Part shown: piece after piece, positions 27,522 to 46,735 of the stretch
Layout of the letters: the number at the start of each line of letters is the position of its first letter
Numbering within the stretch: the stretch's first letter is position 1
Assembly: GCA_012033335.1 (NCBI GenBank)
Contig: JAAURB010000010.1
Span: 1-64,000, forward strand
Source: Oscillatoriales cyanobacterium RM2_1_1
GTDB taxonomy: Bacteria > Cyanobacteriota > Cyanobacteriia > Cyanobacteriales > Microcoleaceae
Reading direction: 5' to 3'
DNA length: 64,000 nucleotides
Position numbers and translations under genes: made by a program
The notes under the pieces: model-generated
What the model was told of the DNA's origin: nothing
The model's input: only the letters and a program-made list of their open reading frames with translations
Database searches by the model: none

Positions 27522-27567
27522 TGCTCCAGTGAGAGGTTAGCTAGACCCTTACCTGAAGTGATTGCCT

Positions 27568-29198: not shown

Positions 29199-31805
29199 TC
29201 AAGTCAAAATTGAACCCCCCATCATGCGCTGATAACGCCGCTCCCACTCGACTTGCAAGGTTGGCCACCGTCCTAAACTGGGATCTTGATCGAGCAATTG
29301 TTGGGCAGCGGTGCGGGCAACTTCCAGAATTCCCTGATCTTCCACCAAGCTTGCCAAGACAAAATCTGGTAATCCAGACTGCCGAGTTCCCAAGACCTGA
29401 CCCGGCCCCCGCAGTTGTAAGTCCATTTCTGCAATAAAAAAGCCATCTTGAGATTGTTCTAGAACGTTTAATCTCTGGCGGGCTTCAGGGGTTTTGCTAC
29501 CGGTCATTAGCAGACAATAGGACTTGTGTTCACCGCGACCGACCCGACCCCGCAATTGATGCAGTTGAGACAAACCAAACCGTTCGGCATTTTCAATCAA
29601 CATCACCGTGGCATTAGGGACATCCACACCCACTTCTACCACCGTGGTAGATACCAGAATGTGGGTTTGTTGATCGCGGAATTGACTGATGGCTTGATCC
29701 TTATCGGCACTGGTCATACGGCCATGGAGCAACCCCACCTGAAATTCCGGGAAGACTTTTCCCTGAAGCTTTTCATGTTCTTCCACGGCGGATCGCACGT
29801 CGAGTTTTTCCGACTCTTCCACCAACGGCAACACAATATAAACCTGCCGCCCCTGAACAATTTCCCGGCGAATCAAATCGTAGGCTTGCTGCCGTTGTTG
29901 CCCCGTGAGAACCGTGGTTTGAATCGGTTGGCGACCGGGAGGCAGTTCATCCAATTGACTCACATCTAAATCCCCGTGGAGCGTTAAGGCCAGGGTTCGG
30001 GGAATCGGGGTAGCCGTCATGGTCAGCACATGGGGGGATTCACCTTTTTGCTGGAGCTTGGCCCGCTGTTCCACCCCAAACCGATGCTGTTCATCGATTA
30101 CTACCAACCCCAACCGACTGAAGTTGACCGCATCCTGAATTAAAGCGTGGGTTCCTACCAGTACCGAGAGTTCCCCGGTTTCCAACTGGGCATGGATTTG
30201 CCGTCGCTTAGCAACTTTAGTGGAACCAGTGAGTAATTCCACCGGAAGATGGAGCAGATTAAACCAGGATACAAATTTGCGATAGTGTTGCTCGGCCAGA
30301 ACCTCCGTGGGAGCCATCAGGGCCGTTTGATAGCCCGCCTGAATCGCCGCTAGCATCGCGACTACTGCCACCACAGTTTTGCCCGCTCCCACATCCCCCT
30401 GAACCAGACGATTCATCGGTTCGGAAGAGTTTAAATCCTGCAAAATTTCCTGAACAACCCGACCTTGAGCGTTGGTGAGTTCAAATGGTAAAATCTGATA
30501 AAACTGGTCAATCAGTTTCCCAGTGGGGGACAGCACCACACTGGTTTCGACCACTTTTTGTTGCTGCCGCCGTTGCAGGAGCCACAACTGTAGATAAAAG
30601 AATTCATCAAATACCAATCGCTGCCGAGCCTGGGTGAGCAACTCTGGATTCTCGGGGAAGTGAATATTCTGTATGGCAGTTTGCAAGTCAATCAGCTCAT
30701 GGGTTTGGCGCAGTTCTAGGGGCAACGGTTCTGGTAATTGCTTCACCGTCGGCAACACTGCGGTGACGGCCTTTCTGACAATATCTGCCCCCAATCCTTC
30801 CGTCAGGGGATACACAGGTACCACTCGCCCCACTTTCATGGACTCGATCTGACCCCCGGTGTGATTGAGTACCTCCAGTTCCGGGTTTTCCAGGGTGATG
30901 CCGTATTTGTTGCGTTTGACCAAACCCGAGGCCGCCACAATTGCCCCGGTGGGATAGTTGCGCCGCTGAACGTTTTGCCAAGCAGGGGTTGCATAGCGGC
31001 TTCCAGCATAGAACCGACTGAGTTTGAGCTGGCCGGTGTCATCCACCAGCATCAATTCCAGAATCGTCAACTTCTTGTTGCGAGGACTACTGAAACAGCT
31101 ACAACGCTTGACTCTAGCCATGATCGTCACCGTTTCTCCTGGCTCCAGATCCCGAATCCGGGCATGGTGGCCATAGTCCACATGGTTGCGGGGATAATAG
31201 TACAGCAAGTCGTAAACGGTATAGAGCCCCAAACGGGCCAGGCGATCGCCATTTCTCGGCCCGACAATTCCTTTCAAGGGAGCTTCCAGGGTTAAGTTCT
31301 TTGCCGGTTGTTCCTCTGCCTTAAGGGTTGGAGAAGAATCTTGACGGAGATTGGCTGGCTGCTGGTTCCAGGTTGAGTCTGCAGTAGACCTGACTGCAAC
31401 AGTTGGGGCTCGGGAAATTTGAGACCGGGAACCCGTAGGACTTGACTCAGTAGAGCTTGCATCGGTAGACCGGGACTGCGACGGTTCGATCCCTAGCCGA
31501 CGGCTCTCTTCGACCCTGAGTTTATAGTCACTAAACCGCTGTATTTGTAGCAGGAATCGATGGCTATCTGTGACTAGATTTTGTCGCTCGTAGAGATTCA
31601 TGTCAGGATAGCGGCTGAACTGTTGAGTCAGCTCCCGGCAGCGGTGCTGAGATTCAATCGGTACGATGCCTAGGATTTCACCCAAACTCACTTGCAGAAA
31701 TTCATAGAAGCGGTATTGATGGCCCTGGAGATTTACAAATCCCCGCTCCGCTTCAACCGAAAGTGCTTTCTGGAGCCTGGCCCAGTCAGGCTGAAAAGTT
31801 TCCAT
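29199..31805 (-). CDS. recG: ATP-dependent DNA helicase RecG
   Basis: RecG reverses stalled replication forks and migrates branched DNA. The 868 residues include a cyanobacterial N-terminal extension (about 1-170) with a Ser/Thr-rich linker. The wedge/OB domain follows (RNGDRLARLGLYTVYDLLYY), then the superfamily 2 motor: motif I GDVGAGKT (Lys476), motif II DEQHRFG, motif III TMTATPIPRTLAL, and motif VI QLRGRVGRG. It starts 3 nt after the stop of the 299-residue gene upstream, so the pair is an operon. ATG at 31803-31805. Confidence 0.97.
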   Translation of the reverse strand: METFQPDWARLQKALSVEAERGFVNLQGHQYRFYEFLQVSLGEILGIVPIESQHRCRELTQQFSRYPDMNLYERQNLVTDSHRFLLQIQRFSDYKLRVEESRRLGIEPSQSRSTDASSTESSPTGSRSQISRAPTVAVRSTADSTWNQQPANLRQDSSPTLKAEEQPAKNLTLEAPLKGIVGPRNGDRLARLGLYTVYDLLYYYPRNHVDYGHHARIRDLEPGETVTIMARVKRCSCFSSPRNKKLTILELMLVDDTGQLKLSRFYAGSRYATPAWQNVQRRNYPTGAIVAASGLVKRNKYGITLENPELEVLNHTGGQIESMKVGRVVPVYPLTEGLGADIVRKAVTAVLPTVKQLPEPLPLELRQTHELIDLQTAIQNIHFPENPELLTQARQRLVFDEFFYLQLWLLQRRQQQKVVETSVVLSPTGKLIDQFYQILPFELTNAQGRVVQEILQDLNSSEPMNRLVQGDVGAGKTVVAVVAMLAAIQAGYQTALMAPTEVLAEQHYRKFVSWFNLLHLPVELLTGSTKVAKRRQIHAQLETGELSVLVGTHALIQDAVNFSRLGLVVIDEQHRFGVEQRAKLQQKGESPHVLTMTATPIPRTLALTLHGDLDVSQLDELPPGRQPIQTTVLTGQQRQQAYDLIRREIVQGRQVYIVLPLVEESEKLDVRSAVEEHEKLQGKVFPEFQVGLLHGRMTSADKDQAISQFRDQQTHILVSTTVVEVGVDVPNATVMLIENAERFGLSQLHQLRGRVGRGEHKSYCLLMTGSKTPEARQRLNVLEQSQDGFFIAEMDLQLRGPGQVLGTRQSGLPDFVLASLVEDQGILEVARTAAQQLLDQDPSLGRWPTLQVEWERRYQRMMGGSILT

Positions 31806-31808
31806 AAT

Positions 31809-32708
31809 TCATTCTGATTCATCCTCAAACCAGCTTGAGCGCCATGCGGCTTCTGCCTCTAACACAGCCCGTTCTCGAAACTTTTTACGGTATTCCCGCC
31901 GGATCTTATTCAATTTTCCCATCAGGTTGCGAATTTGATGTCGCCCGGCCATAACAGTAGCATCAGCAAACTCAATTTCATTCAATCGCAGATGAATTGC
32001 CATCAATCGGGTTATCTTGGCGCTTTGACCCTGCTCTAGATCTTCTACTTCGATCATCAGATTAATCAAATTTGGCGGGCTGGCAATGGTTTCAGCCGTT
32101 TCAGCCGTGGACGCAACCTCCAACAATTTCTCAGGCAATTTTTGAGGGAGAACCCTGGAACGCCGAATCAAAAAATTAACATCCCGCGATAGGGTACGGA
32201 GGGTTTTGCTGATGTCTGCATCTATTTTTTCTTGCCAGTTCATCAGGCTCTCTGGCAAGCTGGGAACCGTCTCCACCAGGGTGAGGGCCACGTCACTAGA
32301 GCTTAATTCAAGCAGCAACTCGGAGAAATCCGTCTCTGTAATCAGATCCAGCTCCTCATCTATGGTTTGAGACGTTTGAGTGTCTTCTGGAACCTCATAT
32401 TCCCCCTCGGGAGCTGACTGACTTGAAGACGTGTGAATCAAATCCCTGAGCTGACCATGGGCGACTTGAGCCAGGTGTCGGAGTTCCTGTTGAAAATTCT
32501 GTCTCTCTGAAAATGGCAGCTTCAGGAATGCCTCCGGATATCCCTGAGTGCAGAGGTGATAGGTGGCTAGGGTTAACTGTTGCCGAACAGCCTGCCCCAA
32601 TCCATCAAGGTACTGAGTATAAGCCTGTTTTAAGTCTTCGGTGATCCTAGCGATCGCCTCCTCTAGGTCTGAAATATCCTGTTCAATCTGTTTAATTGAT
32701 CCCGTCAT
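31809..32708 (-). CDS. conserved cyanobacterial coiled-coil protein upstream of recG
   Basis: This 299-residue protein is mostly helical. The first 70 residues are a predicted coiled coil (IEQDISDLEEAIARITEDLK). An acidic linker follows (about 105-140), then another helical region and a C-terminus rich in Arg/Lys and Trp (KIRREYRKKFRERAV, ending SWFEDESE). I do not recognise a domain. Immediate coupling to recG suggests a part in DNA handling, by inference only. Confidence 0.7.
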   Translation of the reverse strand: MTGSIKQIEQDISDLEEAIARITEDLKQAYTQYLDGLGQAVRQQLTLATYHLCTQGYPEAFLKLPFSERQNFQQELRHLAQVAHGQLRDLIHTSSSQSAPEGEYEVPEDTQTSQTIDEELDLITETDFSELLLELSSSDVALTLVETVPSLPESLMNWQEKIDADISKTLRTLSRDVNFLIRRSRVLPQKLPEKLLEVASTAETAETIASPPNLINLMIEVEDLEQGQSAKITRLMAIHLRLNEIEFADATVMAGRHQIRNLMGKLNKIRREYRKKFRERAVLEAEAAWRSSWFEDESE

Positions 32709-32869
32709 TCACCCCAGCTCAACAGCAATAAAAACTACACCAGCCTATCCAAGTGTAGCAAGATCAGACCCGTTAAAGCCCAGGGCTGATCAGCCCGTTA
32801 CCTTGAGATCGCTCCTGATCGAACCCAGATATTATTATCGCAGCTTGAGGACATTGAAACCCTGACTTT

Positions 32870-32907
32870 TTACCGGGCTAAATTCAACTTACCGGGCTAA
32901 ATTCAAT
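32870..32907. repeat. 19-nt tandem duplication
   Basis: TTACCGGGCTAAATTCAA(C/T) occurs twice in direct succession, 27 nt beyond the stop of herA and upstream of the coiled-coil gene's far side. No coding meaning. Confidence 0.9.
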
Positions 32908-32933
32908 GCGAAATTTGATGCGGAATTTACAAG

Positions 32934-34661
32934 TTACCCCAACCGTTTCATAGTTTTTTGAAACCGAGCCTGATCGGCTGCGGTTTTTTGCACTTCTTCT
33001 TTGCGGGTAGCGTAGGCTGGAAAGGGAAACCGGATCAGGATTGGTGCTGGCACTTCCGGTTGTTGAATAAATAGGGAACCAGATTTTAGAAATAATACCC
33101 GCTCCTTGGCTGAAGCCGTGAGAAAGTTATACTCTGGTCGAGTCGCTTCGGCAGAATCCAAACGCCCCACCACTCGAACTGCCGCCTGCCCTACCACGCG
33201 GCGCTCCACTTCTGAGGCGGTCTGTTGAGCCCCAATCAGAATAATTCCCAGGGATCGGCCCCGTTCGGCGATATCGGTCAAGAGAGATTTGATCGGGCTG
33301 CGACCTTCTCGGGGGGCGTACTTGTTGAGTTCGTCCAGGGTGACCATGACAATCGGCTCCCGGCCTTGACGCTCTTTCTGGGTGAATAGTCGCTGCAAAA
33401 TCGTCCCCACTACAAACTTTTGGGCCCGTTCCCCCAGGCGATGAATATCAGCCACAATCACTTGGGCTGGCTCTGACAGGGGATCAAGTCGGAACCGGGC
33501 AATTTCATCGGGGGCCAGATCTCCCCGAATTAAATGTTCAACTTCAGCCCGAATCCCAAACAGGCGACGAATCAAAGCATTGGCCGTGGCCGGAGCATTT
33601 TTACTCAGCCAGCGCTGATCTTCCTCGGTAATTAACTGATGTTCCAGGAACCGGATCAGATCACTAAAGCTCTCAATGGATGTTTTCGGGTGGTCTTCGC
33701 CGTAGGGTTCTACTTCAAGACCAGAGAGGGGTTCACCCAACCTTTTATCCCGGGCATCATTGTCTGTGGCCAGTTGGGCCAGTCGTTCTTCCACATTGGC
33801 GATCAGATAGGGCAAGTTTCCTCGCTCTAGATCTTCCCCGGTGAATAAAAAACTAAACAGGCGATCGCGACAAACCTCCCGAATACTCCACAGGTAAGGG
33901 GTTACCCCTTCTGAGCGTTGATCTAGATTGACTTCAATCTGGGGAACTCCCGGTTTAGGAGTGGCCCGGAAGCTGACGTTTTGAAAGGGAATGGCTGGCA
34001 GGTTGATTTTTTCATAAATCGGAGCCACGTCAGCGGCTTTTTTGTTGAGCTGGTCAATGAAAAATAAATCTTCCCCCTTGACATTAAAAATCAGGGCTTT
34101 GGTGTTGGCTTTGGCTGTTCCTAAGGCCGTGGAATTAAATATGGAATGGAGCAGAAACAGCATGTAGGAGGTTTTAGTAGCGACCCCAGATAATCCTGAA
34201 ATATTCACATGGGCTCCCTTCTCCCCATTGATGAAGGAGAAATTCACCGCTGCCGGCGAACCGTTGGTCATCAGCCCTGCCGAAATCGGTTTGTCCATAC
34301 TGTCAAAGTACAGGGCTTGTTTTAACTCCTGACCCAGGGCCAGTTCGACTACAGTACCCGGAAAAGGCGGCAACAACTCTTCCTCTGGCTCAATCCGGGT
34401 GACCCGAACATGGGCGGTGTAGGAGGTATTGATCGGCAACTGTCCCTGCTGGGCTAGAAAAGTGTCACTATCAAACTGTGCCCCCTCATATTGGGTCTGA
34501 ACCCGATCCACAATCCCATAGAATTCAACCCGGGCGGCGGTATCGGGCCGTTGAGCCACCACCTTGACGACATCGTCTAGTCGTAGGGTTTGACCGGATT
34601 CCACCGCTACCCAAAATTCCAACGGAGTTGCCGGTTGCGTACCGAGAATATAACCAATCAC
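32934..34661 (-). CDS. herA: HerA-like hexameric DNA-pumping ATPase
   Basis: HerA ATPases thread DNA ends for resection together with the nuclease NurA. The 575 residues include an N-terminal HAS-barrel (GYILGTQPATPLEFWVA; VEFYGIVDRVQTQ) and a FtsK/HerA core. The P-loop reads GLSGVATKT with Lys163, where the glycine before the lysine in the usual GKT/GKS is replaced by threonine. Walker B is IVMVTLDELN (Asp443, Glu444). The late motif LIGAQQTASEVERR resembles the family's sensor region. The start is GTG at 34659-34661. It lies 117 nt downstream of nurA on the same strand. Confidence 0.85.
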   Translation of the reverse strand: MIGYILGTQPATPLEFWVAVESGQTLRLDDVVKVVAQRPDTAARVEFYGIVDRVQTQYEGAQFDSDTFLAQQGQLPINTSYTAHVRVTRIEPEEELLPPFPGTVVELALGQELKQALYFDSMDKPISAGLMTNGSPAAVNFSFINGEKGAHVNISGLSGVATKTSYMLFLLHSIFNSTALGTAKANTKALIFNVKGEDLFFIDQLNKKAADVAPIYEKINLPAIPFQNVSFRATPKPGVPQIEVNLDQRSEGVTPYLWSIREVCRDRLFSFLFTGEDLERGNLPYLIANVEERLAQLATDNDARDKRLGEPLSGLEVEPYGEDHPKTSIESFSDLIRFLEHQLITEEDQRWLSKNAPATANALIRRLFGIRAEVEHLIRGDLAPDEIARFRLDPLSEPAQVIVADIHRLGERAQKFVVGTILQRLFTQKERQGREPIVMVTLDELNKYAPREGRSPIKSLLTDIAERGRSLGIILIGAQQTASEVERRVVGQAAVRVVGRLDSAEATRPEYNFLTASAKERVLFLKSGSLFIQQPEVPAPILIRFPFPAYATRKEEVQKTAADQARFQKTMKRLG

Positions 34662-34777
34662 ACCAAAACTCCTTGCTCAATTCAAAAAACCGATTAAAAA
34701 ACTCTGTAACCGTCGGGAAACCAGGGTTTGATTGCCCATGACCCGACTCAATTCCCGCTCCAGAGCCCCAACCGGGG

Positions 34778-35710
34778 TTAAGTTCTGGGGGGCCCGGCGA
34801 TCGCGGTTGGGGTTGAGGCATATTCGGGGATCAAAATACACATTTGATTGGCCACGGCGATTCCCAGCTCCAGCTCAACATCCCCATAGAGATCCATCCG
34901 CACTATGCCGTGGAGCCCATGATAACCCAGGGCTGAGGAATTGATACCCGGTTGACCTGAGCGCAAATACCAGCTCCAGCGCCGTTTGGGGCTTCCCGAT
35001 TCCCCCAGGGCAAAGATCGGAGTCCGTTCTCTCGGCTTGAGCTGCCAGAGAATTTCACCATAGTCCCCCTTCAGGTAAGACCGACCCATGGTTTTGACAT
35101 AGCCCACAGCCAGATCGGGAGAACGATAGGGTTGGTAGAGCAGGGGGCCATCTCGCACCACCACTAGATTGGGCTCCGCCGCAAACTGACTGGCATAGCG
35201 ACTCTCCTCAGTGAGCATCGCCTCCTGAATCAAATTTGTCGGGGTTTGGGGATCGTTGGCGCGATCGCTCATGATCAGGTCATAACTCAACTCCCCTACC
35301 CCCCCATTGGGAACAGGAATCTGGGTTTTTGGAGCCTGAAAACCTCCCCCGGTGGCGATTACCCGCCGAACGATGGGTTTTAGACAAACCGCTTGATTTT
35401 GGCCGCGATCGACGAGAACACCACCAACCGCAACGGTACCAAAAGCCCCGACCACCAGATCATGACCGTTACGCCCCATAAATCGGGCATCAACCCGTCT
35501 GCGTCCATCCACAAACAGAAGACGTTCAGGCAAGGGGGTGGAATTTGGAGCCTGACAGGGGAGCCATTCGGGTTGCTCTACATTGAGGTCAATGGCAATA
35601 TCTGCGGGGGTTTCCTCCGCCGAAAACTGGACTGGGGTATCATAATCTATCCCCCAGGGCTCCAAACGAATCTGATAATTTTTCCAGAAGTTATCCAAGT
35701 GTTCTATCAA
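34778..35710 (-). CDS. nurA: NurA-domain nuclease, partner of HerA
   Basis: NurA is a manganese-dependent RNase H-like nuclease that digests DNA ends with HerA. The 310-residue protein carries the family metal motifs LLFVDGRRRV (Asp68) and VVVRDGPLLY (Asp187). The end GDVELELGIAVANQMCILIP fits the NurA C-terminus. The start appears to be TTG (35708-35710); no ATG lies near. Together with herA it forms a two-gene unit. In archaea the pair works with Mre11-Rad50; no such genes are in the window. Confidence 0.85.
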   Translation of the reverse strand: MIEHLDNFWKNYQIRLEPWGIDYDTPVQFSAEETPADIAIDLNVEQPEWLPCQAPNSTPLPERLLFVDGRRRVDARFMGRNGHDLVVGAFGTVAVGGVLVDRGQNQAVCLKPIVRRVIATGGGFQAPKTQIPVPNGGVGELSYDLIMSDRANDPQTPTNLIQEAMLTEESRYASQFAAEPNLVVVRDGPLLYQPYRSPDLAVGYVKTMGRSYLKGDYGEILWQLKPRERTPIFALGESGSPKRRWSWYLRSGQPGINSSALGYHGLHGIVRMDLYGDVELELGIAVANQMCILIPEYASTPTAIAGPPRT

Positions 35711-35964
35711 TTAATCATCTGTTGATAATCTATCTACTGATATGACGACCACAAATGACTTATAAAAGTGGAGTGAGCACCTTGCCCGTAGGCCAGAAGC
35801 CTGCACCATCACAGATTTTTACAAATTTTTACAAACGAGTTGTATGAGGTATGGATTTATGAGGTACAGATTGAGGAGTGGGTGGCCCATTACGAAACCA
35901 ACTCCCGTATTCCAGCAGCACGGGAAACGCTGTAATCAAACGCTGTAATCATTTGTCCTGGACA
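35711..35964. other. gap with a possible gene remnant and tandem duplication
   Basis: Plus-strand 35842-35935 reads ELYEVWIYEVQIEEW followed by VAHYETNSRIPAARETL and TAA. This looks like the last 30 residues of a protein but has no upstream body. Its end (AAACGCTGTAATC, 35925-35937) is duplicated immediately (35938-35950). A dispersed-repeat-like patch lies at 35765-35810 (TTGCCCGTAGGCCAGAAGCC). The family of the remnant is unknown. Confidence 0.35.
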
Positions 35965-38040
35965 TCAACTGCTAACTTTTACAGGCTCTTGAGCGGCTTG
36001 ATAGTGGGTTACGGTGACTCGATTTCGGCCTTTGCGTTTTGATTCCTGCAGGGCTCGCTCCGCCGATTGCACCAGGGTGGCATAGGAATCACCAATTTTG
36101 GGAATTGCACTCGCCACCCCCACACTAACGGTCACAACCTCCTCAGGAAACCCTCCAAACTTATAACTTTTAATATCAATTCCCAGGGCTTTCACCTGTT
36201 CTCGAACCCGTTCCGCTACACACACGGCCCCAGCAACATCAGTCCGAGGGAGTAAAATCATAAACTCTTCTCCCCCATATCGAGTCACCAGATCATCGGG
36301 TCGATTGACACAAGCGCGAATCGACTGAGCAATCTGTTGCAAACAACTGTCCCCGGCAGGATGGCCATAGATAGCATTGTAGATCTTGAAGAAGTCAATA
36401 TCGGCCAGAATTGCCGATAAACAAGTCTGATCCCGTAGGGCACGCCGCCACTCTAACTTGATGTAATTATCAAAGTAGCGCTTATTTGCCAATTGAGTCA
36501 ACTCATCTAGGTTACAAATTTGCAGCAATTCCAAATTTTCTTTTTTGAGTTGCTCGGGCTGATGGGATGGCTCCGAAACAGGGTACAAACCGTTCAGGAT
36601 GGGTTCGGGTTCTAATTCAATTTCCATCAAAGCGCTCGTCCGGTCGGATTGTAAAAGTTGATTCCGGAAATAGATGGCATAAAGCTGACAACTGGGCATG
36701 GTGTAGTTGCCATCTAAATTCACCAAACCCAGACTGTTGAGCTTATAAGCCAGGGTTGGTTCTAGAGAAACCCCCTGGTCACTCGACACCACCTGTTGGA
36801 GGGCTAGACGAAGATAGGAATTTGACTGAATCATCGACAGCATCCGCCGGAGATGGTCGTTATAGACTCCGGCTTCAGTGGGAGCCTGATGCAATAGATC
36901 TTGCAATCGCTGACGCTGTTGTTCCCAGGTTTCGGTGCGATCCTTGGCGGGGGGCATGAACATGATAGAGGTGGGATTGAGGGAATGCTGAGGAAATGCC
37001 AGGTGATGCAGGGCTAGCTGAATCAGATAGGGATGCCCGCCGACAATCCCCATCAGTTGCTCAGTATCAATCTGACTAAACCAGGCTAATCCGTAGCGTC
37101 GGGCCAGTTCCGAGACCTGATCGGGGGTAAATGGGGGTAGGGTGAGGGGCAACCCGATGTTAAACGGAGATTGATTCAGGTTCAGGGGAATGTAGACTTC
37201 AGTTGAATAAGAAACGATCAGACGCAGCTTTTGCCAAACTTCAGTTTTGCGGGCCTGTTCATGCCAGAATCGCAGCAAGGGCAGGAACTCTTTGGCAATT
37301 TCGGGATATTCAAAAACCCGGTCAATTTCAGTCAGGGCCAGCACCAATGGAGTCGGCAGTTGTGTCAATAAATGGGCTTGCATATATATCGTACAACTGA
37401 CTTTACTCCCAATATCCTCATCCCAGTATTCGTTGAGTTTGGGTGAGAGTTGGAGTTCCCGGCTGAGATTCGCGCAGAACCATCGTAGAAATCGATCCAG
37501 GCTAGAAAATGCTGTGTTGTCCGCCTGGCCTAGGTCAAGATGAATCATCTGATAGTTTTCCTGGGCTGCCCGATCCAGGATATTCAAAATCAGGGAGCTT
37601 TTGCCCATCTTACGGGGAGCCTTAATCCGGATCAAACTCCCGGGCTCTAAAAGCTTGGCATAGGCCAGATCCTCAATCGGAGGCCGAGGAATATAGAATC
37701 CAGAATCTGGAGCCAGGGGGCTATCGGGAAACTCTAGGGTGGGAACTGAACCCAGGCTAGAATAGCTGCGGATCGATTGCTGTTGGGCCGGAGTCAGGGG
37801 ACGATGCTCTAACAGCTTACGAAAATTGGCTTTGCTAATCGGTTCACCCAGCACGTCGCTGGCCAGAACCCAGAGTCCTGCGGCCACTTTCCGCACCCGT
37901 TCAGCTCCATAGAATGCTTCTTGGGCAATCACCGCGTAGGTTTTGCCCTCCCAAGCATGACGGAGAATCAATTCCTGGAGAGTAGTAATCGGGGTGGGAT
38001 GACCGGCATTCAACAGTTGGATGAGTTCATCAATTGTCAT
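35965..38040 (-). CDS. vMAP-like N-domain + AAA-like NTPase + GGDEF diguanylate cyclase fusion
   Basis: The 691 residues divide into three parts. Residues 1-80 are helical and resemble the N-terminal domain of vWA-MoxR-associated proteins (TIDELIQLLN...AVIAQEAFYGAERVRKV). About 110-460 is an AAA-like NTPase with P-loop APRKMGKSS (Lys147), Walker-B-like LVLALTEIDRVF, and GGHPYLIQLAL. About 515-680 is a GGDEF domain with active GGEEF (589-593) and an intact RxxD inhibitory site (RPDD) five residues before it. It should make cyclic-di-GMP with product inhibition, perhaps gated by the NTPase. Cytoplasmic, no membrane segment. Confidence 0.88.
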   Translation of the reverse strand: MTIDELIQLLNAGHPTPITTLQELILRHAWEGKTYAVIAQEAFYGAERVRKVAAGLWVLASDVLGEPISKANFRKLLEHRPLTPAQQQSIRSYSSLGSVPTLEFPDSPLAPDSGFYIPRPPIEDLAYAKLLEPGSLIRIKAPRKMGKSSLILNILDRAAQENYQMIHLDLGQADNTAFSSLDRFLRWFCANLSRELQLSPKLNEYWDEDIGSKVSCTIYMQAHLLTQLPTPLVLALTEIDRVFEYPEIAKEFLPLLRFWHEQARKTEVWQKLRLIVSYSTEVYIPLNLNQSPFNIGLPLTLPPFTPDQVSELARRYGLAWFSQIDTEQLMGIVGGHPYLIQLALHHLAFPQHSLNPTSIMFMPPAKDRTETWEQQRQRLQDLLHQAPTEAGVYNDHLRRMLSMIQSNSYLRLALQQVVSSDQGVSLEPTLAYKLNSLGLVNLDGNYTMPSCQLYAIYFRNQLLQSDRTSALMEIELEPEPILNGLYPVSEPSHQPEQLKKENLELLQICNLDELTQLANKRYFDNYIKLEWRRALRDQTCLSAILADIDFFKIYNAIYGHPAGDSCLQQIAQSIRACVNRPDDLVTRYGGEEFMILLPRTDVAGAVCVAERVREQVKALGIDIKSYKFGGFPEEVVTVSVGVASAIPKIGDSYATLVQSAERALQESKRKGRNRVTVTHYQAAQEPVKVSS

Positions 38041-38769
38041 GGGATTAGCGACACAGAAGGAACTTCACGAGTAAGGCATGGGATGTAGCTATGGTACTCG
38101 ATATGATGGACAAGATGCCAATTTCAACATGAGTTTGCTACCCCATCTTGAAAAGAGCTCTAGTTATGCCCTATACTTAATCTTTAGTTTAGCCGTTATC
38201 AAGGTTAAATTCTTATCTAATCAACCCTTTTTCCCTTTATCAACTACAAATTCAACTAACTACAAATTCAACTACAAATCATCCTCAGAGTTTGGTCGTT
38301 TGTTCATCTTGTGATACCCAATCGCAGATATTTGGGGCTATGATCATTTGAGGACTTGCAAAGCCAGGATTGAGACCATCCCTAAGTCATCGGTACATTA
38401 GAGTTTTTCGCAGAGGTTTCTCGCAGAATTTCATCAGCATAATACACTATGAGCCAACTCAATCTGCGATCTCAGGTAGAAATCTGGATTGCAGATATTT
38501 CTTAGATGTAATTGATGTTGATTTGATTTAAATTTTGATTTCAGTATCGATCGAATGTCCAGGGTTGCTGTAGGTCAACAGCCCAGTTTCCCGCTCAGAA
38601 CTTAAAAGGTTAAGATCTAATTTCAAACTGAACAACGAGTCTCCCCCATAAAAAACTGCTGACCGCTTCAGGCGGGGCAGTCTAGGTCTGGAGTATAGTA
38701 CTCCGTATTTCACTCTAATCCCTTAAGCTCCTGAAGTTAACACCCAAAAACTGCCAGATAAGGATTTGT
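38041..38769. other. 730-nt non-coding region before the hybrid kinase
   Basis: It contains a 16-nt tandem duplication (AACTACAAATTCAACT, 38242-38273) and AT-rich DNA. An AAGGA ribosome site lies just before the kinase ATG (38762-38766 region). I see no gene; two short open frames lack protein-like composition. Confidence 0.5.
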
Positions 38770-41700
38770 ATGGGAGAAACAATAAGCATCAACTGTTGCT
38801 GGGTCAGCAATTTTCTTGGGCTGATATCGCCTCAGCTCTCTCAGTTGCAAAACCTGACAGATGTTTTAACTCTATTTTTAGCTTATGGCGCTCTATTCTA
38901 TCTGACTTCGCGCAGTCAGCCATCAGTAACCGGCAATTTCTATTTTTTTAATTATTTTTTAATCTTTCTAGGGGTTTGGGGATTGCTCAATAGCTTTTTA
39001 CATTTATTGATGGCTAGACCAATTTGGACTAGCCATTCAGGTTTCCTAGACTGGATTCAGGAAATTTTCCTAGCTCTATTGACGGGTCTTTTTGCCCTAG
39101 GGCTGATCCGTCAGCGCCAACCGACCCGGATACCGAACGGCTATGGGCAACGGCTGATTCCGGAGGCAGCCCTTGAGCCACCCTGTCATTGTTCCCCTTC
39201 GAGTCTGGCCACGGCCCTGGAAAATCTCACAGCCAAAACCAATTCTCTTACGGGGCAGGATTTCTTTGCGGCCTTAGTTCAACATCTGGGTCTGACTTTA
39301 GAGGTCTCCTACGTGGCGATAGCCGAAATCTCAGATCAAACCCCTTTGACCTTAAAAACCTCAGCCATCTGGCATAATGGTCAATTGCAGGAGAATGGGG
39401 AGTTGATCATTACCCATTCACCCTGTGAGCAAGTGATTCAATCTGGACAATTGCAATTCTTCCGCAGGGATGTTCAGGAATTGTTTCCAGATTTCCAGAA
39501 TTTGGGGGCATTGAATGCTGACTGCTATTTGGGGATTCCTCTGGTGGATCAATCCCAGGTTCCGACTGGGGTTTTATGTATTCTTAATCAAGCGCCCCTG
39601 AGAGATGAAACTACCGCCCAGATTGTCCTGACTCTATTTGCCCCCCGAGTATCGGCGGAATTTCAGCGGCTACAGACAGAATCATCGCTCCATCAGGTGC
39701 GCGACCAGCTAGAAGTTCGAGCTCAGTCTGCAACCCAAACCCTGCAGCAATGCCCAACGGATCTAGGACAGGTTAATTTGGCCCTGGAACGGGAGATTCA
39801 AGAACGGGTAGCGGCAGAATTCAGTCTCCTGACCAGTGGAGTTCGGCTGCGGAAGCAACAAAACGGATTGCTAGACTTGGCTCAAAGCCAAAAGCTTTAT
39901 CAAGGGAACCTCAAAGAAGCATTGGGGGAAATTGTTGAAGTTGCGGCCCACACCCTGAGCGTTGAGCGGGTAAGTATCTGGCTCTATAGTAGCGATCGCA
40001 TTGAGTTTCATCTGGCCAGTTGTTATGATTCGATGCTCTCGTCCTCCTCTTATGCCCTGCCTGAATTACCTGAAGCCTTAAGTTGTCAGGATTACCCCTT
40101 TTATTGTCAAGCTTTAGATGCTGAACGGGTGATCTCTGTCACCGATATCCAAACCGATCCCCGGATTCAAGAACTTGCCCTGAGCTATTGGAGTTTGGCC
40201 CAGGTATCGACTGTTCTGATTGTACCAATCCAGCTCAGGGGTCAGGTTCAGGGGGCGATTTGGTTTGAACAACGCCATGCTCCCCGAACCTGGATGATTG
40301 AAGAACAAAATTTTGCCAGCTATCTGGCCTATATGACGGCTTTGGCCATTGAGTCCCGGGAGCACCGGCAAGCCGAAGAGGCCCTGCGGGCCAGCCAGCT
40401 CTGGGTTCAGGGCATTGCCGATGCTAGCCCTAGTATTCTCTATCTCTACGACCTGGAAACCCATCGCAATCTCTACATCAATCGGACTGTAATTGATATT
40501 CTGGGCTATACGGCTGAAGACATTCAAGGAATGGAGCAAACCTTCTTGGAAGCTCTGATGCATCCGGAGGATCTAGATCGGATGGCCGATTACTACACCC
40601 AGATGGCCATTGGTTATGAAGGGGATATCTTTGAGGTGGAGTACCGGATGCGGCATCGGGAGGGTGATTGGCTCTGGTTGGTCAGTCGTGATACGGTCTT
40701 TAGCAAAACTCCAACAGGAATGCCCCAACAGATTTTAGGGACAGCGAGTGATATTACGGAGATCAAGCAAGCAGAAACCGCGCTAAAAGCCAGTGAAGCC
40801 TTCTTGCATCGGGTGATCAACTCCGTGGCTGATCCAATCTTTGTCAAAGATGCTCAGCATCATTGGACAATGGTGAATGAAGCCTTCTGTCAATTGGTGG
40901 GCCAGAGTCGGCCTACACTACTCAATGCTGCTGATGGTCAAACCCAGGCCATCAACCCCACCCAACTGTTTGGCGATAGTGATGAGCAAGTGTTGAGGTC
41001 AGGGGCGGAGGTCGAGCGTGAGGAAACCTTCGTAGACTCCCAGGGAATCGCCCATATCCTGATTACTAAAAAGATTGGATTTACCGATCTTTCAGGTAAC
41101 CCCGCCTTGGTGGGAATTATTCACGACATTACTGAGCGCAAACGCTCCGAAGCTACCCTGCGGCAAGTGGCTGAACGGGAAAGGGCCTTGTCTCTGATCA
41201 TCCAGCAAATGCGGCAATCGCTGGAACTAGAAACCATCTTTAGCTGCACGGTTCAAGAGTTGCGGGCGGCCACCGAAAGTGATCGGGTCGCGATCTACCA
41301 ATTCAACCCAGATTGGAGTGGACAATTTGTTGCGGAGTCGGTTGGCCAGGGCTGGAACTCCCTATTGAGTCAGCAGGATCAAGCTTCTAATTCTGTCGTG
41401 AATCAGCAAGCAATCCAAACCGATGGCTGCGTGGTTCAGCTCATTAGTCAAGCTGAAGACCAGATTCAAGACACTTACCTTCAGGAAACCCAAGGGGGAG
41501 CCTATCGCCAGGGAGCCAGTTTTCTCTGCGTTCATGATGTCTATCAGGCTGGGTTTGAGCCCTGTTATCTGGAGCTGCTCGAACAGTTTCAAGCTAAAGC
41601 CTACATTACAGTACCAATTTTTTGTGGTAACCAACTCTGGGGCTTGTTGGCCACCTATCAAAACTCTAACCCCCGACTCTGGGAAGAAACTGAAATCCAA

Positions 41701-43293
41701 ATGGCGGTTCAAGTGGGAACTCAGCTTGGGGTAGCCGTGCAACAGGCAGAACTCTTGGCCAAGACCAAGCAACAGGCAGAAGAACTCAAACAAGCTAAGG
41801 AAGTTGCCGATGCGGCTAACCGATCCAAGAGCGAGTTTCTCGCCAATATGAGCCATGAGCTTCGGACTCCCTTAAACGCGATTTTAGGGTTCACCCAACT
41901 GATGAACCACGACCGGGAGTTGTCCACCGAATATCAGCAATATTTGGGGATCATCTCCCGATCCGGAGAGCACTTATTAAACCTGATCAATGACATTTTG
42001 GAAATGTCAAAAATTGAGGCGGGACGGATTACCCTGAATTCCTGTGATTTTGATCTGCATCGCTTACTCAAAAGCTTGTACGAGATGTTACAACTCAAGG
42101 CGGAGTCGAAGGGGCTTGACTTGATTTTTGAGTGGGATACTACTACTATTCCTCAATACATCTCAACGGATGAAAATAAACTGCGTCAAGTATTGCTCAA
42201 CCTGCTGGGCAACGCCATTAAATTCACCCAGACGGGTCAGGTTGTACTGCGGGTTAGATTGCAGGATTATCCGATTGCTGAGAAACCAGCACTGAAACCA
42301 GCATTGAAACCAGCACTGAATGGAACCCCCCCAGCAAAGACACCGGAGATCGCCCTGATTTTTTTTGAGGTAGAAGATACCGGACTGGGAATTGCCGCCG
42401 AAGAACTCCATCGATTGTTTGAAGCCTTTAGTCAAACTGAGGTTGGGATCAAGTCAGGGGAAGGCACAGGTTTAGGACTGCCGATTAGTCAGAAGTTTGT
42501 CCACCTGATGGGGGGAGAGATTCAGGTTCAGTCTCAACCGAAACTGGGAAGCGTATTCACATTTGATATTCAAGTTGAATTGGCAAATGTAGCCGTGACT
42601 GAGACGAGTCCCGGTTGTCAGGAAATTGCCGGTTTGGCCCCCGATCAGCCCATTCCTCGGATCCTGGTGGTTGAAGATAAGTTTACCAATCGCTTGCTTC
42701 TGGTCAAGTTTTTAGAAGGAATTGGATTCCAGATCAAACAAGCCGAAAATGGGGAAGAGGCGATCGCCCTCTGGTTAGAGTGGCAACCCGATCTAATCCT
42801 GATGGACATGCGGATGCCAGTGATGGACGGCTATGAAGCGACTAAACGGATCAAAGCCCTGGATGAGTCGGAAAAAACCAGTATTATTGCGCTGACGGCG
42901 AGCGCATTTGAAGAAGAACGACAACTTATTTTATCCATTGGCTGTGACGGTTTTGTTCGGAAACCCTATAAGGAAACTGAGTTGCTAACGGCTATCAGCG
43001 CTCAATTGGGCATTGAGTACATTTACAAAACAGCATCCTCCACCCCATCCTGTGACTCTGGAGAGAATCTATCCAAATTTATGCTCAATCCTGAAGCATT
43101 GCAGGTGATGCCTCGAGAATGGGTAGAAAACCTGCACAGCGCAGCAGCTCAGTGTAGCGATTTATTAACCGCCAAGATGATTGAGCAAATTCCGCCTGAA
43201 CGTCAAGAACTCGGGGATGCTCTGCAGGAATTAGTCGAAAATTTCCGATTTGATCGGATTATGGATTTAACCCACTCATCCGTATTTAAGTAA
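38770..43293 (+). CDS. membrane-anchored hybrid histidine kinase with GAF, PAS and CBCR-type GAF domains
   Basis: The domains of this 1507-residue sensor, in order: two or three membrane helices (about 30-115); GAF (about 150-300); coiled coil; GAF (about 375-530); PAS (about 548-665); PAS (about 675-800); a GAF of the phytochrome/cyanobacteriochrome type (about 815-995); HisKA with [13 protein letters not shown] (His1029); HATPase with [11 protein letters not shown]; a receiver with [13 protein letters not shown] (Asp1346); and a C-terminal tail. In the third GAF the bilin-binding Cys position is kept ([13 protein letters not shown], Cys932) but the usual next histidine is tyrosine. A second Cys lies at 920. 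A KPAL triplet repeat sits in the kinase domain. Confidence 0.92.
42285..42320 (+). repeat. 12-nt tandem triplication inside the histidine kinase gene
   Basis: ACCAGCACTGAA occurs three times (the middle copy has one change), coding KPALKPAL-type residues within a variable loop of the HATPase domain. It stays in frame, so the kinase is not broken. Confidence 0.9.
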
Positions 43294-43741
43294 AGCCAGG
43301 TTCAAATAGCGCCAAACAATCCTGAGCCAGAATACCACCCACCACTTTGATCTCCTGAAATCCTCGTTGAACGATGGCTTCGCAGGTCAGATCAATCTGC
43401 TCTGAACCAATGGCAATCAAGTCTTTTGTAGAAGCCCCAAAAACAATTTCTGAAACCCCTGACCACACGCAAGCCGCCGCACACATCGGACAGGGTTCGC
43501 AAGTTGTGTACAGAGTATATCCTTTTAAAATCTCTAGAGAATAGGACTTACGAGCTTGAGTAAATTGCCGCAGAACATTTAGTTCTCCATGGGCAGAAAC
43601 ATCGCTGTCTCGCTGCGCCGTATTATAGCCTTTGAGAATGACTTCACTATCTTTAACCAGCACCGCCCCGTAGGGCATGTCTCCTTTTTTTGCTTCTTCT
43701 AAAGCAATTTGCATAAAATATTCGTGGGTTCGATGAATCAT
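43286..43741 (-). CDS. CMP/dCMP-type nucleoside or nucleobase deaminase
   Basis: This 151-residue zinc hydrolase has the family motifs [10 protein letters not shown] (zinc His and catalytic Glu; Gly replaces the common Ala between them) and [14 protein letters not shown] (the two zinc cysteines). The form is closest to guanine deaminase/cytosine deaminase-like proteins; tRNA adenosine deaminase is the alternative. The 3' end overlaps the histidine kinase gene by 8 nt, convergently. A double GAATATTC palindrome lies 34-50 nt upstream. Confidence 0.85.
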
Positions 43742-43774
43742 TTTGATGCTTGATGATAATTTTTTGACATATTT

Positions 43775-43791
43775 GAATATTCAGAATATTC
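43775..43791. promoter_or_regulatory. double palindrome GAATATTC-A-GAATATTC
   Basis: Two copies of the 8-bp palindrome GAATATTC, one base apart, lie upstream of the deaminase ATG. Their spacing of nine bases is close to one helical turn. This has the look of an operator; the regulator is unknown. Confidence 0.45.
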
Positions 43792-43792
43792 C

Positions 43793-43820
43793 TTGAAAGT
43801 CCTGTACTGAGGACTTTCAA
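43793..43820. terminator. 11-bp perfect hairpin between deaminase and DUF2267 gene
   Basis: TTGAAAGTCCT and AGGACTTTCAA pair over a 6-nt loop, 28 nt after the DUF2267 stop. There is no T-run on the minus strand after it, so it may be a weak terminator or an mRNA-end structure for the DUF2267 gene. Confidence 0.5.
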
Positions 43821-43847
43821 AAAATACGATGATGATAAATCAGCAAC

Positions 43848-44315
43848 CTAAGCTCTGAGCCAGATCTCCTGGATTTTTCCCGGTAAACTCTGACTAATCT
43901 CTTGAATTCTTTCCTGAGATAGTTCATCTTTAGTGGCTGAAAATACCGCCTCGATCACCGCTTCACCACTTGTTCCTCGGGGCATTCCTCCCTCTTGTTC
44001 AATCCGGCGAACAAAAAGCTGATCATCGATATTCAGAGGTGGACGGATGCGGCTCAACCAGGCAACAATGGGGTTAGTATCCTTCCAGAGCGTTGCAACT
44101 TCTGTCTGCAAGGATTTATCGTCTGAGGCAGATTGAGCCTCAGTGTGGAGTTCTTTGGTGACTCGATCAGCGGCTTCAGTCGTCATCACATCCCGCATGG
44201 TGCGGAAAACAACTTCACATAAATCCCTGGCTTCATACAGATCGGTTAGTCCGGCTTGGGACTGAACCTTCTCTAAAAACCTGGAGTTCGATTCAGAAAT
44301 TTGTTCGGTTGTCAT
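43848..44315 (-). CDS. DUF2267 family protein
   Basis: This 155-residue helical protein carries the DUF2267 pattern of two similar halves: ARDLCEVVFRTMRDVMTTEAA and GEAVIEAVFSATKDEL, each followed by a short amphipathic stretch. DUF2267 proteins are soluble, widespread and uncharacterised. ATG at 44313-44315. Confidence 0.75.
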   Translation of the reverse strand: MTTEQISESNSRFLEKVQSQAGLTDLYEARDLCEVVFRTMRDVMTTEAADRVTKELHTEAQSASDDKSLQTEVATLWKDTNPIVAWLSRIRPPLNIDDQLFVRRIEQEGGMPRGTSGEAVIEAVFSATKDELSQERIQEISQSLPGKIQEIWLRA

Positions 44316-44551
44316 AGAATTTTCCTCAAAAGTATGAATTTAGTAACATTAGGAACTTAATCAAATACAAGAATTGTTGCATCTTCCAAAAGAGATACAA
44401 CAGTTTTCGTAAGAGTTCCCCTATCTAGCTCCAGCCGTTGCATTCAGGATGGGATTGGGATTCGCATCAGGTTCCCAGACAAAGACCAGTCCTTGCTCAA
44501 CGGCTGTGACTATAGCCACTCCTTTAAAACTATCAGGCTTTTGACCTCAGC

Positions 44552-46735
44552 TTAAGGTAAAATTTGCCAAACTTTGATGGTATCGTCGAAGCTACCACTG
44601 ACCAACATTTTCCCCTGGGGTTCAAACGCTAAGTCAACCCAGGATTTATGGCCTTTCAGGGTACCGATCAAGCTTCCAGTTGGCATTTGCCAGAGATTAA
44701 TTGTGCCGGCAAAGTCCCCACTAGCCAGAATCTGACTATTGGAACTGAAGGCGAGAGAATAGATTTTGTCGTGATGTCCTGCTAAGGTTTGCTCAGGAAT
44801 ATTGTTAAAGTACTGGGACTTAAGCTGCTCCAAATCCCAAAGCTTGACGGTTTGATCCGAACTGCCGGTCGCTAGAATGCGCCCATCTGCACTCACTGCA
44901 ACGGACCAAATTGTACTAGAATGACCCCTAATGCTTCGCAACAGTTGACCGGTGCGCCAATTCCACAGCTCAATCATTCCGTCCCCACTCCCTGCAACCA
45001 ACTCAGACGCATCGGGAGTAAAAGCCAGGGTTTGAACCTCGTCCGTATAGCCTTGAAATTGTCTGAATTCCTGGCCCGTTTGCAGGTTCCACAACCGAAT
45101 GGTGCGATCGCGGCCCGTACTGGCCAGAATTTTGCCATCCGGACTCAGGGCAATGGCGTAAATCCATCCCTGATGACCTTCAAGTACCTTCAATAGCTCC
45201 CCTGTAACCAAGTCCCAGACTTTAATACTATTGTCGCCACTGCCACTGACCAAAATGCGATTGTCAGGACTAAAAACCAGGGTACTAACGGGATGGGAAT
45301 GGCCCCGCAGAGTTTCTAGAATTCTGCCCTGAAAGTCAAGAATGTCGATGGTTCCATCCGTGTTTCCAGAGGCAACCGTTTGTCCATTGGGACTCATGGC
45401 GATCGCCCAAACTGGCCCAGAGCTTTGTTTGAGGGTCTGCACTAAGGGTAGCCCGGAGGTTGGGGGAAATTGATCCGGTTGTGACTGGGTGGGAGGTGAG
45501 GAGTAATCTGGCTCTATAGGAGCGTAAACAATTGGCCTGGAACCTGGCCCTAACAATCGGGAAACCAGAACCAGTATCAACCCGACAAAAGCGGCCCCTG
45601 TCCCGACGGCAAATTGCCACTTGACCCTTTGGATCTGAGGCAACGTTCGCCAATGCTGCGATCGCTCCATATCCTTGAGCACTGCAGCAACGGATTGGTA
45701 TCGCTTGGTAGGATTTCGTTCAATCAACCGATCCAAAATACATTCCAGGCGGGGACTAACGGGCTGCTGAAGATAGTCCTGCCAGACCCACTGCTGGGAT
45801 GTCGTTTCAACCAGATCAAAGGGGGGCAGATGGGTCAAGGCATTCAGACAGGTTACCCCCAGGCTATACAGATCGCTATTGGGCTGAGGATGGCCCCTAA
45901 GCTGTTCTGGAGCGGCATACTCTGCTGAACCCCAATTTGAATGGGCATCGTCTATAATCCCATCAGTTTCTAGTTTTGAAGGAATCCCAATATCAACTAA
46001 AGCAAAGGGTCGAGGGGCAGTATCTTCTGGATCCGAGGTGATGGTGGCACGAACCAAATGATCGGATCTAGATGAAGGATAATTAGACCACTTCAGTGGT
46101 GAGTTCGGGGAACGTGACAAGGACTGAGGTGTTGTTTGAGTAGTCGCTGGAGTAGTGGTTTGAATAATGTTTTCAGGCTTGATGTCGCCATGGATCAAAC
46201 CCCGTTGATGGAGGGTTTGGAGATTCGGGAGAATATCTTTTAAGAGTCGCCAGACCTGCTCCTCCGTGAAGGTCTCACCCTCCGCAACGGTTGTGGCCAA
46301 ATTCTCTCCAGCCACATACTCGTAAACCAGATATTGATAATTATCCTGTTCAAAGACCGCCCATAGATCCGGCAATGTAGTTGGGCGAACAGCCTGCTGC
46401 CAATGGGCGGCAAGATTTTGCAGGTGTTGTCTCTGATCCAGGTTTCTCTGATTTAAATTGCTTTGATCCAGAGCCGAAGGAAAATCAACTGAATCCTGAG
46501 TTTCAAGGTCAGAACGGCCTGGGGTAGAAATCAGCAATTGTTTGATTACGCAGGGAGGCTGGGTGGGTTGGTCTGTGTCAATCCCCAGAAAGGTTTGATG
46601 AGTCGTCGATTTCCCCAAGCGTTGAACAACTTGATAACGCCCTTTAAGCTTCAAACTAGAACCACAACCCTGGCAAAAGTTAAGGTAAGCCGGATTCTTG
46701 GGGGTATTGCAGTGAGGATTAATGCAGTAGCTCAT
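44552..46735 (-). CDS. Ser/Thr protein kinase with zinc-ribbon N-terminus and seven WD40 repeats
   Basis: This 727-residue protein begins with a zinc ribbon (Cys4, Cys9, Cys21, Cys24). The kinase domain (about 33-360) has a weak glycine loop (LGKSTTHQTF), VIK near 65, catalytic HGDIKPENI (Asp184) and VDIGIPS where DFG is expected; cyanobacterial kinases of this type often deviate here. One membrane helix (about 374-395) separates it from an extracytoplasmic beta-propeller of seven WD40 repeats (about 435-727), each with a SPDG/xxGH...KVWD pattern. The propeller probably senses a ligand or docks a partner. Signalling target unknown. Confidence 0.92.
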   Translation of the reverse strand: MSYCINPHCNTPKNPAYLNFCQGCGSSLKLKGRYQVVQRLGKSTTHQTFLGIDTDQPTQPPCVIKQLLISTPGRSDLETQDSVDFPSALDQSNLNQRNLDQRQHLQNLAAHWQQAVRPTTLPDLWAVFEQDNYQYLVYEYVAGENLATTVAEGETFTEEQVWRLLKDILPNLQTLHQRGLIHGDIKPENIIQTTTPATTQTTPQSLSRSPNSPLKWSNYPSSRSDHLVRATITSDPEDTAPRPFALVDIGIPSKLETDGIIDDAHSNWGSAEYAAPEQLRGHPQPNSDLYSLGVTCLNALTHLPPFDLVETTSQQWVWQDYLQQPVSPRLECILDRLIERNPTKRYQSVAAVLKDMERSQHWRTLPQIQRVKWQFAVGTGAAFVGLILVLVSRLLGPGSRPIVYAPIEPDYSSPPTQSQPDQFPPTSGLPLVQTLKQSSGPVWAIAMSPNGQTVASGNTDGTIDILDFQGRILETLRGHSHPVSTLVFSPDNRILVSGSGDNSIKVWDLVTGELLKVLEGHQGWIYAIALSPDGKILASTGRDRTIRLWNLQTGQEFRQFQGYTDEVQTLAFTPDASELVAGSGDGMIELWNWRTGQLLRSIRGHSSTIWSVAVSADGRILATGSSDQTVKLWDLEQLKSQYFNNIPEQTLAGHHDKIYSLAFSSNSQILASGDFAGTINLWQMPTGSLIGTLKGHKSWVDLAFEPQGKMLVSGSFDDTIKVWQILP

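Follow-up and report, generated by a model that had tools for sequence, protein, structure and literature searches.

The window, the whole 64,000-nucleotide stretch of DNA that was analysed, carries on its minus strand a single open reading frame that occupies exactly positions 35965-38040 and codes for a protein of 691 amino acids; the gene is real. A gene for a hybrid histidine kinase of 1507 amino acids lies in divergent orientation to it, the two being 730 bp apart. The features of the locus are given below, with the supporting evidence in brackets.

35965-38040, minus strand: HTH-AAA_35-GGDEF protein, 691 amino acids (open reading frame, Pfam, motifs, AlphaFold model)
37747-38040, minus strand: N-terminal domain, residues 1-98, predicted to be an all-helical HTH (model helices, structural matches, weak profile matches)
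36661-37728, minus strand: AAA_35 STAND-like NTPase domain, approximately residues 105-460 (PF14516; VIA alignment to 2qen)
37594-37620, minus strand: P-loop APRKMGKSS, residues 141-149 (motif reading, alignment)
37327-37332, minus strand: Walker B position, residues 237-238, Thr-Glu instead of Asp-Glu (alignment; end of model strand 232-237)
37021-37044, minus strand: VGGHPYLI, residues 333-340, which we take to be a GxP-type STAND motif (G335 and P337 invariant)
36514-36561, minus strand: helical stalk N-terminal to the GGDEF domain, residues 494-509 (model helix 494-509)
36019-36513, minus strand: GGDEF diguanylate cyclase domain, residues 510-674 (PF00990, 148 bits; WspR GGDEF fold match)
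36292-36303, minus strand: I-site RPDD, residues 580-583 (motif reading)
36262-36276, minus strand: active-site GGEEF, residues 589-593 (motif reading)
38770-43293, plus strand: divergent hybrid histidine kinase (GAF/PAS-HisKA-HATPase-REC), 1507 amino acids, likely functional neighbour (Pfam, locus comparison)

The presence of an AAA-like NTPase and a GGDEF domain in one protein, as put forward in the original prediction, is confirmed by Pfam scores far above the cut-offs, with 446.8 bits against 27 for AAA_35 and 148 bits against 23.8 for GGDEF. The AAA_35 match is made up of two stretches, the best at residues 105-354, and the C-terminal part of the profile reaches approximately residue 459. 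The structure prediction proposed at the same time yielded an AlphaFold model of the 691-residue protein with a mean pLDDT of 87.2 and a pTM of 0.57, in which the linker ahead of the stalk helix (residues 471-493, pLDDT below 50) is disordered; for both of these last reasons the relative positions of the domains in the model are not to be read. Residues 102-460 of the model resemble the Pyrococcus Walker-type ATPase 2qen (Z 21.1, rmsd 4.3, 309 residues aligned), presumably a member of the STAND/MNS branch, and the GGDEF part matches the isolated WspR GGDEF domain 3i5b_A with Z 28.9 and an rmsd of 1.3 over 167 residues. In the Foldseek search with the full model, the matches listed were filled by GGDEF entries, and the comparison of the AAA_35 profile with solved structures gave one lysozyme entry and otherwise short matches to RecA P-loops; these were set aside.

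Matches to AAA_35 or GGDEF at 1e-20 were found in all 59 relatives searched, and HTH-AAA_35 proteins of about 450 amino acids occur in nearly every relative searched. The AAA_35-GGDEF fusion itself, traced with a profile built on the C-terminal part, is present in at least 29 of 388 genomes of the class and at a minimum of 31 loci; a contig search with the full 691-residue protein gave only GGDEF-domain relatives (80 loci kept) and was not used. The comparisons below are based on 39 unbroken fusions, of which 15 were chosen by similarity to the 691-residue gene or retrieved among other AAA_35 proteins and 24 were detected with the C-terminal profile; since these 24 were found with residues 395-691 only, their choice was blind to position 237. 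Nine fusions bear the HTH (the 691-residue gene, L126, L127, L138, L139, L155, L244, L258 and L260), and 30 are devoid of it. Broken AAA_35-GGDEF copies exist at L132 (genome G016) and L136 (genome G009), so some lineages can do without the gene.

Regarding the output domain, the catalytic GGEEF and the RPDD inhibitory site, described earlier as intact, are both in place with the canonical spacing of five residues, so that the protein conforms to the GG[DE]EF active site and to the RxxD I-site ahead of it, and its GGDEF domain is, to judge from these motifs, an apparently active diguanylate cyclase. Among the 39 fusions, the GG[DE]E[FL] signature is kept in 30 and the RxxD I-site in 20, and this distribution suggests that a minority of fusions have probably lost cyclase activity; the nine with a changed signature count against a reading in which the NTPase gates a cyclase. 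For the 691-residue protein, PADLOC produced no system and a single weak match to Cas10 (E 0.0066), located in the palm-like region of the GGDEF domain.

The P-loop had also been considered complete. Its GKS core is present at residues 146-148, but the NTPase site as a whole is incomplete, because the Asp expected at position 237 of Walker B is replaced by Thr (LALTEIDR), with the next residue, Glu238, kept. Therefore, of the features of a hydrolysing NTPase, the protein has the P-loop GK[ST] and lacks the Walker B hhhhD[D/E]; this substitution, overlooked by the earlier reader, shifts the expected mechanism towards binding rather than hydrolysing the nucleotide. The change is not restricted to this gene, since position 237 in the 39 fusions is N in 26, S in 5, T in 3, Q in 3, H in 2 and D in none, versus D in all 52 alignable AAA_35 domains that come from the WD40-type proteins (35 of 35, a WD40 row that contained no AAA_35 letters being excluded) or from the remaining classes (17 of 17). 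Unfused HTH-AAA_35 proteins are mixed at this position, with 18 D, 13 N and one E. The P-loop lysine K147 is kept in every one of the 39 fusions, and S/T148 in 38. The Fisher tests applied to such counts take no account of relatedness, and their p-values are unsafe and are not used as proof. In the tree, 38 of the fusions fall in one cluster of 54 rows together with 16 unfused proteins, 13 of which have N at position 237 and three of which have D (L150, L151 and L153), the only fusion outside the cluster being L134, with S; for this reason the loss of the Asp may be a single old event. The simplest history that the alignment and tree would allow is a single old loss of the Asp that all fusions have retained, D being regained only where the GGDEF domain is absent. 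Nucleotide cutting thus seems, as far as the conserved motifs tell, to have been lost from the AAA_35 domain in the cyclase chain and binding to have been kept.

The genes next to the fusions supply the intact counterpart. The next same-strand gene downstream codes for an AAA_35 protein in 23 of the 39 fusions versus 0 of the 198 random open reading frames that had a downstream neighbour, with 5 of the first 15 fusions (L126, L133, L134, L152 and L155) and 18 of the 24 profile-found ones contributing. This partner is mostly an AAA_35-WD40 protein of approximately 1200 amino acids in which the Walker B DE is intact. Both types of AAA_35 are joined in one chain in four genomes: in G038, the chain L179:6217-8931 (plus strand) has the order AAA_35-class III cyclase-AAA_35, with the partner-type copy altered (IDP) and DE in the effector-type copy, and is closely preceded by a hybrid kinase gene in the same orientation; in G170, G161 and G274 both halves of the query lie in one open frame of 744-766 amino acids, without a cyclase. 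The one-chain fusion, together with the gene adjacency, argues for the two AAA_35 types working as a pair. Partner and fusion AAA_35 domains have correlated distances (Mantel r 0.84 over 23 pairs, a value reached in 0 of 2000 permutations), but this correlation is confounded by the species tree, which could produce it alone. The adjacency is found in 20 of the 30 HTH-less fusions and in three of the nine HTH-bearing ones, a point against the WD40-driven reading for the 691-residue gene, which has no adjoining AAA_35-WD40 partner; in its own genome, an AAA_35-WD40 protein of 908 amino acids is encoded elsewhere, on contig C122.

These data bear on the alternative view that the protein is an ordinary diguanylate cyclase acting independently, with AAA_35 as a nucleotide sensor that is relaxed and in decay; the neighbours would then be there by coincidence, and the Walker B change would be drift that one clade inherited. 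The grouping of the fusions in essentially one cluster, the variety of the residues that replace the Asp (N, S, T, Q, H) and the missing AAA_35 partner beside the 691-residue gene are all compatible with it. Nevertheless, the invariant P-loop lysine and the nearly invariant S/T speak against general decay, no fusion has gone back to Asp, though the unfused L150, L151 and L153 of the same cluster have it, and the partner adjacency differs sharply from that of the random frames; altogether, this view is considered unlikely.

The second recurrent neighbour is the divergent kinase. In G003, the homologues of both genes are likewise divergent, with 60% identity for the 691-residue protein and 47 and 51% in two HSPs for the kinase. 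Within 1.6 kb, 17 of the 35 close loci, from 11 genera, have an HK/REC gene in divergent orientation, versus 4 of 200 random open reading frames from 20 regions (4 of the 60 that had a divergent neighbour); the 35 close loci were chosen by score, and L132 was left out as broken. At L158, a further HK/REC gene lies 2239 bp off. The kinases differ in kind, including ETR1_N-bearing, PAS and REC-HK types. Among the kinases divergent from HTH-AAA_35 genes, the ethylene-receptor-like ETR1_N membrane domain was recognized by Pfam at L126 and L149 and by BLAST label at L159-L162 and L164, an apparent link between ETR-type kinases and STAND proteins. Only five of the 39 fusions have the divergent HK/REC gene within 1.6 kb (the 691-residue gene, L126, L133, L138 and L258), which counts against a kinase-driven reading, and it was found in none of 11 more distant HTH-AAA_35 loci, one of them without an upstream gene on its contig; since L258 is also the only case among the 24 profile-found fusions, the kinase link appears to belong to the HTH-bearing branch.

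Genes for second messengers are also found repeatedly around the unfused relatives. In the first tree, the unfused HTH-AAA_35 proteins of G002, G017 and G030 form a starred sister group (97/89) of the 691-residue gene and its G003 homologue; the support in this placement tree is rough and a second, faster tree puts L138 with G002, G017 and G030, so the sister-group point is a moderate one. A REC-GGDEF-EAL gene is the divergent neighbour of the unfused gene in two of these three genomes, and in G030 (L140) it is found beyond an inserted 402-residue open reading frame. With the sister relationship, one side would have the cyclase output within the fused protein and the other side in a neighbouring gene. 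REC-GGDEF-EAL also adjoins the fused gene in G038, and the neighbours of other unfused relatives include GGDEF-EAL at L154 and L156 and a REC-GAF-class III cyclase at L164 and L165. Further along the window, 32934-34661 (minus strand) codes for a HerA-like ATPase (PADLOC HerA models, best E 7e-7), 34778-35710 (minus strand), upstream of it, for a protein that looks NurA-like by eye and has no Pfam match, and 44552-46735 (minus strand) for a protein that joins a protein kinase domain to a WD40 propeller. A link with the downstream HerA-like and NurA-like genes was dropped, as their homologues did not adjoin the AAA_35-GGDEF gene in the 20 loci compared.

The N-terminal domain is modelled with helices at residues 3-13, 20-30, 35-42, 46-64, 73-78 and 84-96, and most rows of the structural comparison are NarL/LuxR-type HTH domains, the best Z of 7.2 being below the trust level of the tool; Foldseek with this domain gave a best E of 0.9. 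No Pfam match above the cut-off was obtained for it, alone or in the full protein. Across 37 homologous N-domains, Sigma70_r4 was matched in three and GerE in two at E up to 1, and the best matches of single members were E 5e-4 for Sigma70_r4 and E 3e-4 for GerE, all of them weak. A profile of the domain against solved structures retrieved only Dicer, at E 0.06 or worse, which was not used. The accessible text of a 2024 census of cyanobacterial sigma70 homologues lists AAA_35, NB-ARC and WD40 as accessory domains of these proteins, in agreement with an HTH reading (PMC11119718). On the model and these matches, the domain is most likely a predicted helix-turn-helix of the sigma-region-4/LuxR type. 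It is thus probably an HTH as to fold, which the original prediction had counted against itself as an unrelated one, but this does not sink the idea of a switch. A search for the same domain on other proteins of the genome, also proposed at the outset, gave four copies, all on STAND proteins: two with AAA_35 (the 691-residue protein and an HTH-AAA_35 protein on C122) and two with NB-ARC (on C8 and C164). This complete association indicates an HTH-like module common to STAND proteins, more likely a STAND assembly or recruitment domain than the core of a transcription factor. The two NB-ARC proteins headed by the domain, at L123:2052-3272 (plus strand) and L124:1758-5474 (minus strand) on these contigs C8 and C164, have WD40 repeats; in the C8 copy, the WD40 repeats are in an overlapping reading frame, perhaps by a frameshift.

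If the HTH instead bound DNA, for example in the 0.7-kb divergent intergenic region, the protein might be a transcription regulator whose binding is controlled by NTP-driven assembly, with GGDEF as a local co-output. The NarL/LuxR-like model, the weak Sigma70_r4 and GerE matches, the sigma70 accessory domains of the census and the divergent arrangement with the kinase gene would all suit such a regulator. Nevertheless, the HTH is missing in 30 of the 39 fusions, and is therefore not needed for AAA_35-GGDEF function, and the structural resemblance remains below the trust level, so a regulator of this kind is rather improbable. An anti-phage or other conflict system of the VMAP/STAND type, with c-di-GMP as an alarm signal, could be recognized in the STAND architecture and patchy distribution, typical of such systems, and in GGDEF as a rare VMAP output, reported in the accessible part of Kaur et al. 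2020 (PMC7159879), but it is very unlikely, given that VMAP-C (PF20028) had no match in the genome at E up to 0.1, that Pfam gave no vWA or MoxR match in the nine neighbouring proteins scanned (29199-46735 plus 27562-28542), that PADLOC assigned neither the 691-residue protein nor the WD40 partners submitted to it to any system (the partners showed only matches to HEAT-ARM_XIII, within their WD40 part), and that the recurrent neighbours are two-component genes, c-di-GMP genes and a second AAA_35-WD40 NTPase. Hence the assignment to a conflict system is not supported here. The same applies to the description of the N-domain as 'vMAP-like', in view of the NarL/LuxR-type model, the lack of a Pfam match and the genome without VMAP-C; PF26355 we take to be HTH_VMAP-M9.

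The reading that is preferred, and to which we give about an even chance, is that of a STAND-gated diguanylate cyclase, in which the NTPase domain would bind and hardly hydrolyse its nucleotide and would be driven by a hydrolysing partner NTPase, a phosphorelay, or both. Of the switch originally imagined, a STAND-like NTPase coupled to c-di-GMP synthesis and triggered by a partner, the domains, the fold and the gene neighbourhoods uphold the core, and the conflict and VMAP part falls away. In this switch, AAA_35 would bind NTP through the intact P-loop and, without the Walker B Asp, hydrolyse it poorly or not at all, and NTP binding together with the partner would lead to dimerisation or a higher assembly. 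By analogy with the biochemistry of diguanylate cyclases, assembly would then pair two GGDEF domains through the helical stalk for c-di-GMP synthesis, and the product would feed back at the RPDD site. The input would come from the partner, which, and not the cyclase chain, is expected to hydrolyse. In most AAA_35-GGDEF systems it may be the operon-encoded AAA_35-WD40 protein, with its intact Walker B, as the sensor subunit able to hydrolyse; for the branch with the HTH, which includes the 691-residue gene, the divergent hybrid histidine kinase or phosphorelay, the C122 AAA_35-WD40 protein, or both, are more likely. A more far-reaching and only tentative proposal is a two-part STAND machine, in which AAA_35-WD40 senses and hydrolyses NTP, a permanently hydrolysis-dead AAA_35-GGDEF uses bound NTP as a structural latch and supplies the c-di-GMP, and the branch of the 691-residue gene replaced or supplemented the WD40 partner with the hybrid histidine kinase. 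Were this the case, one cyclase would read both a phosphorelay and a nucleotide state in that branch.

In comparison with known systems, the protein shares its NTPase family with the cyanobacterial HTH-AAA_35 and AAA_35-WD40 proteins and its front half with the HTH-AAA_35 proteins of about 450 amino acids, which are annotated as 'AAA-like domain-containing protein' on cyanobacterial plasmids; unlike these other AAA_35 proteins, it has a C-terminal GGDEF domain and no Walker B Asp. With diguanylate cyclases of the WspR/PleD type it has in common the GGDEF signature, the I-site and a WspR-like GGDEF fold; those enzymes are gated by a REC domain, a role that in the 691-residue protein would fall to the STAND-like NTPase of its own chain. 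The nearest tested precedent for a P-loop NTPase as the partner of a diguanylate cyclase is E. coli DgcE, which, according to the accessible part of the report, is activated by the P-loop GTPase RdcA with RdcB, probably by promoting dimerisation, the NTPase being a separate dynamin-like GTPase whose hydrolysis is required (PMC6510439). In the 691-residue protein, in contrast, the NTPase domain is in the cyclase chain and apparently hydrolysis-deficient. The VMAP ternary conflict systems, as far as described in the accessible part of Kaur et al. 2020 (PMC7159879), likewise combine NTPases with nucleotide-signal outputs, rarely GGDEF, and differ in the VMAP-C and the vWA/MoxR neighbours discussed above. 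In the literature searched, neither the AAA_35-GGDEF fusion nor the paired NTPases were found described, although an earlier mention of the bare architecture is possible. The intact second NTPase that is usually encoded beside the relatives points to a signalling machine of two parts that has so far gone undescribed.

In summary, the systematic loss of the Walker B Asp in cyclase-fused AAA_35 domains beside intact partners is the point that merits an experiment, and the asymmetry leads to a sharp prediction, namely that the cyclase subunit binds without hydrolysis and the WD40 subunit hydrolyses. Immune receptors of plants and animals have STAND NTPases as their switch, and bacteria have c-di-GMP as the main signal governing their lifestyle; a direct coupling of the two has scarcely been described. 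If true, the arrangement would be a bacterial counterpart to receptor pairs with one degenerate NTPase subunit, and a large NTPase family of cyanobacteria that so far has no name beyond 'AAA-like domain' would gain a role.
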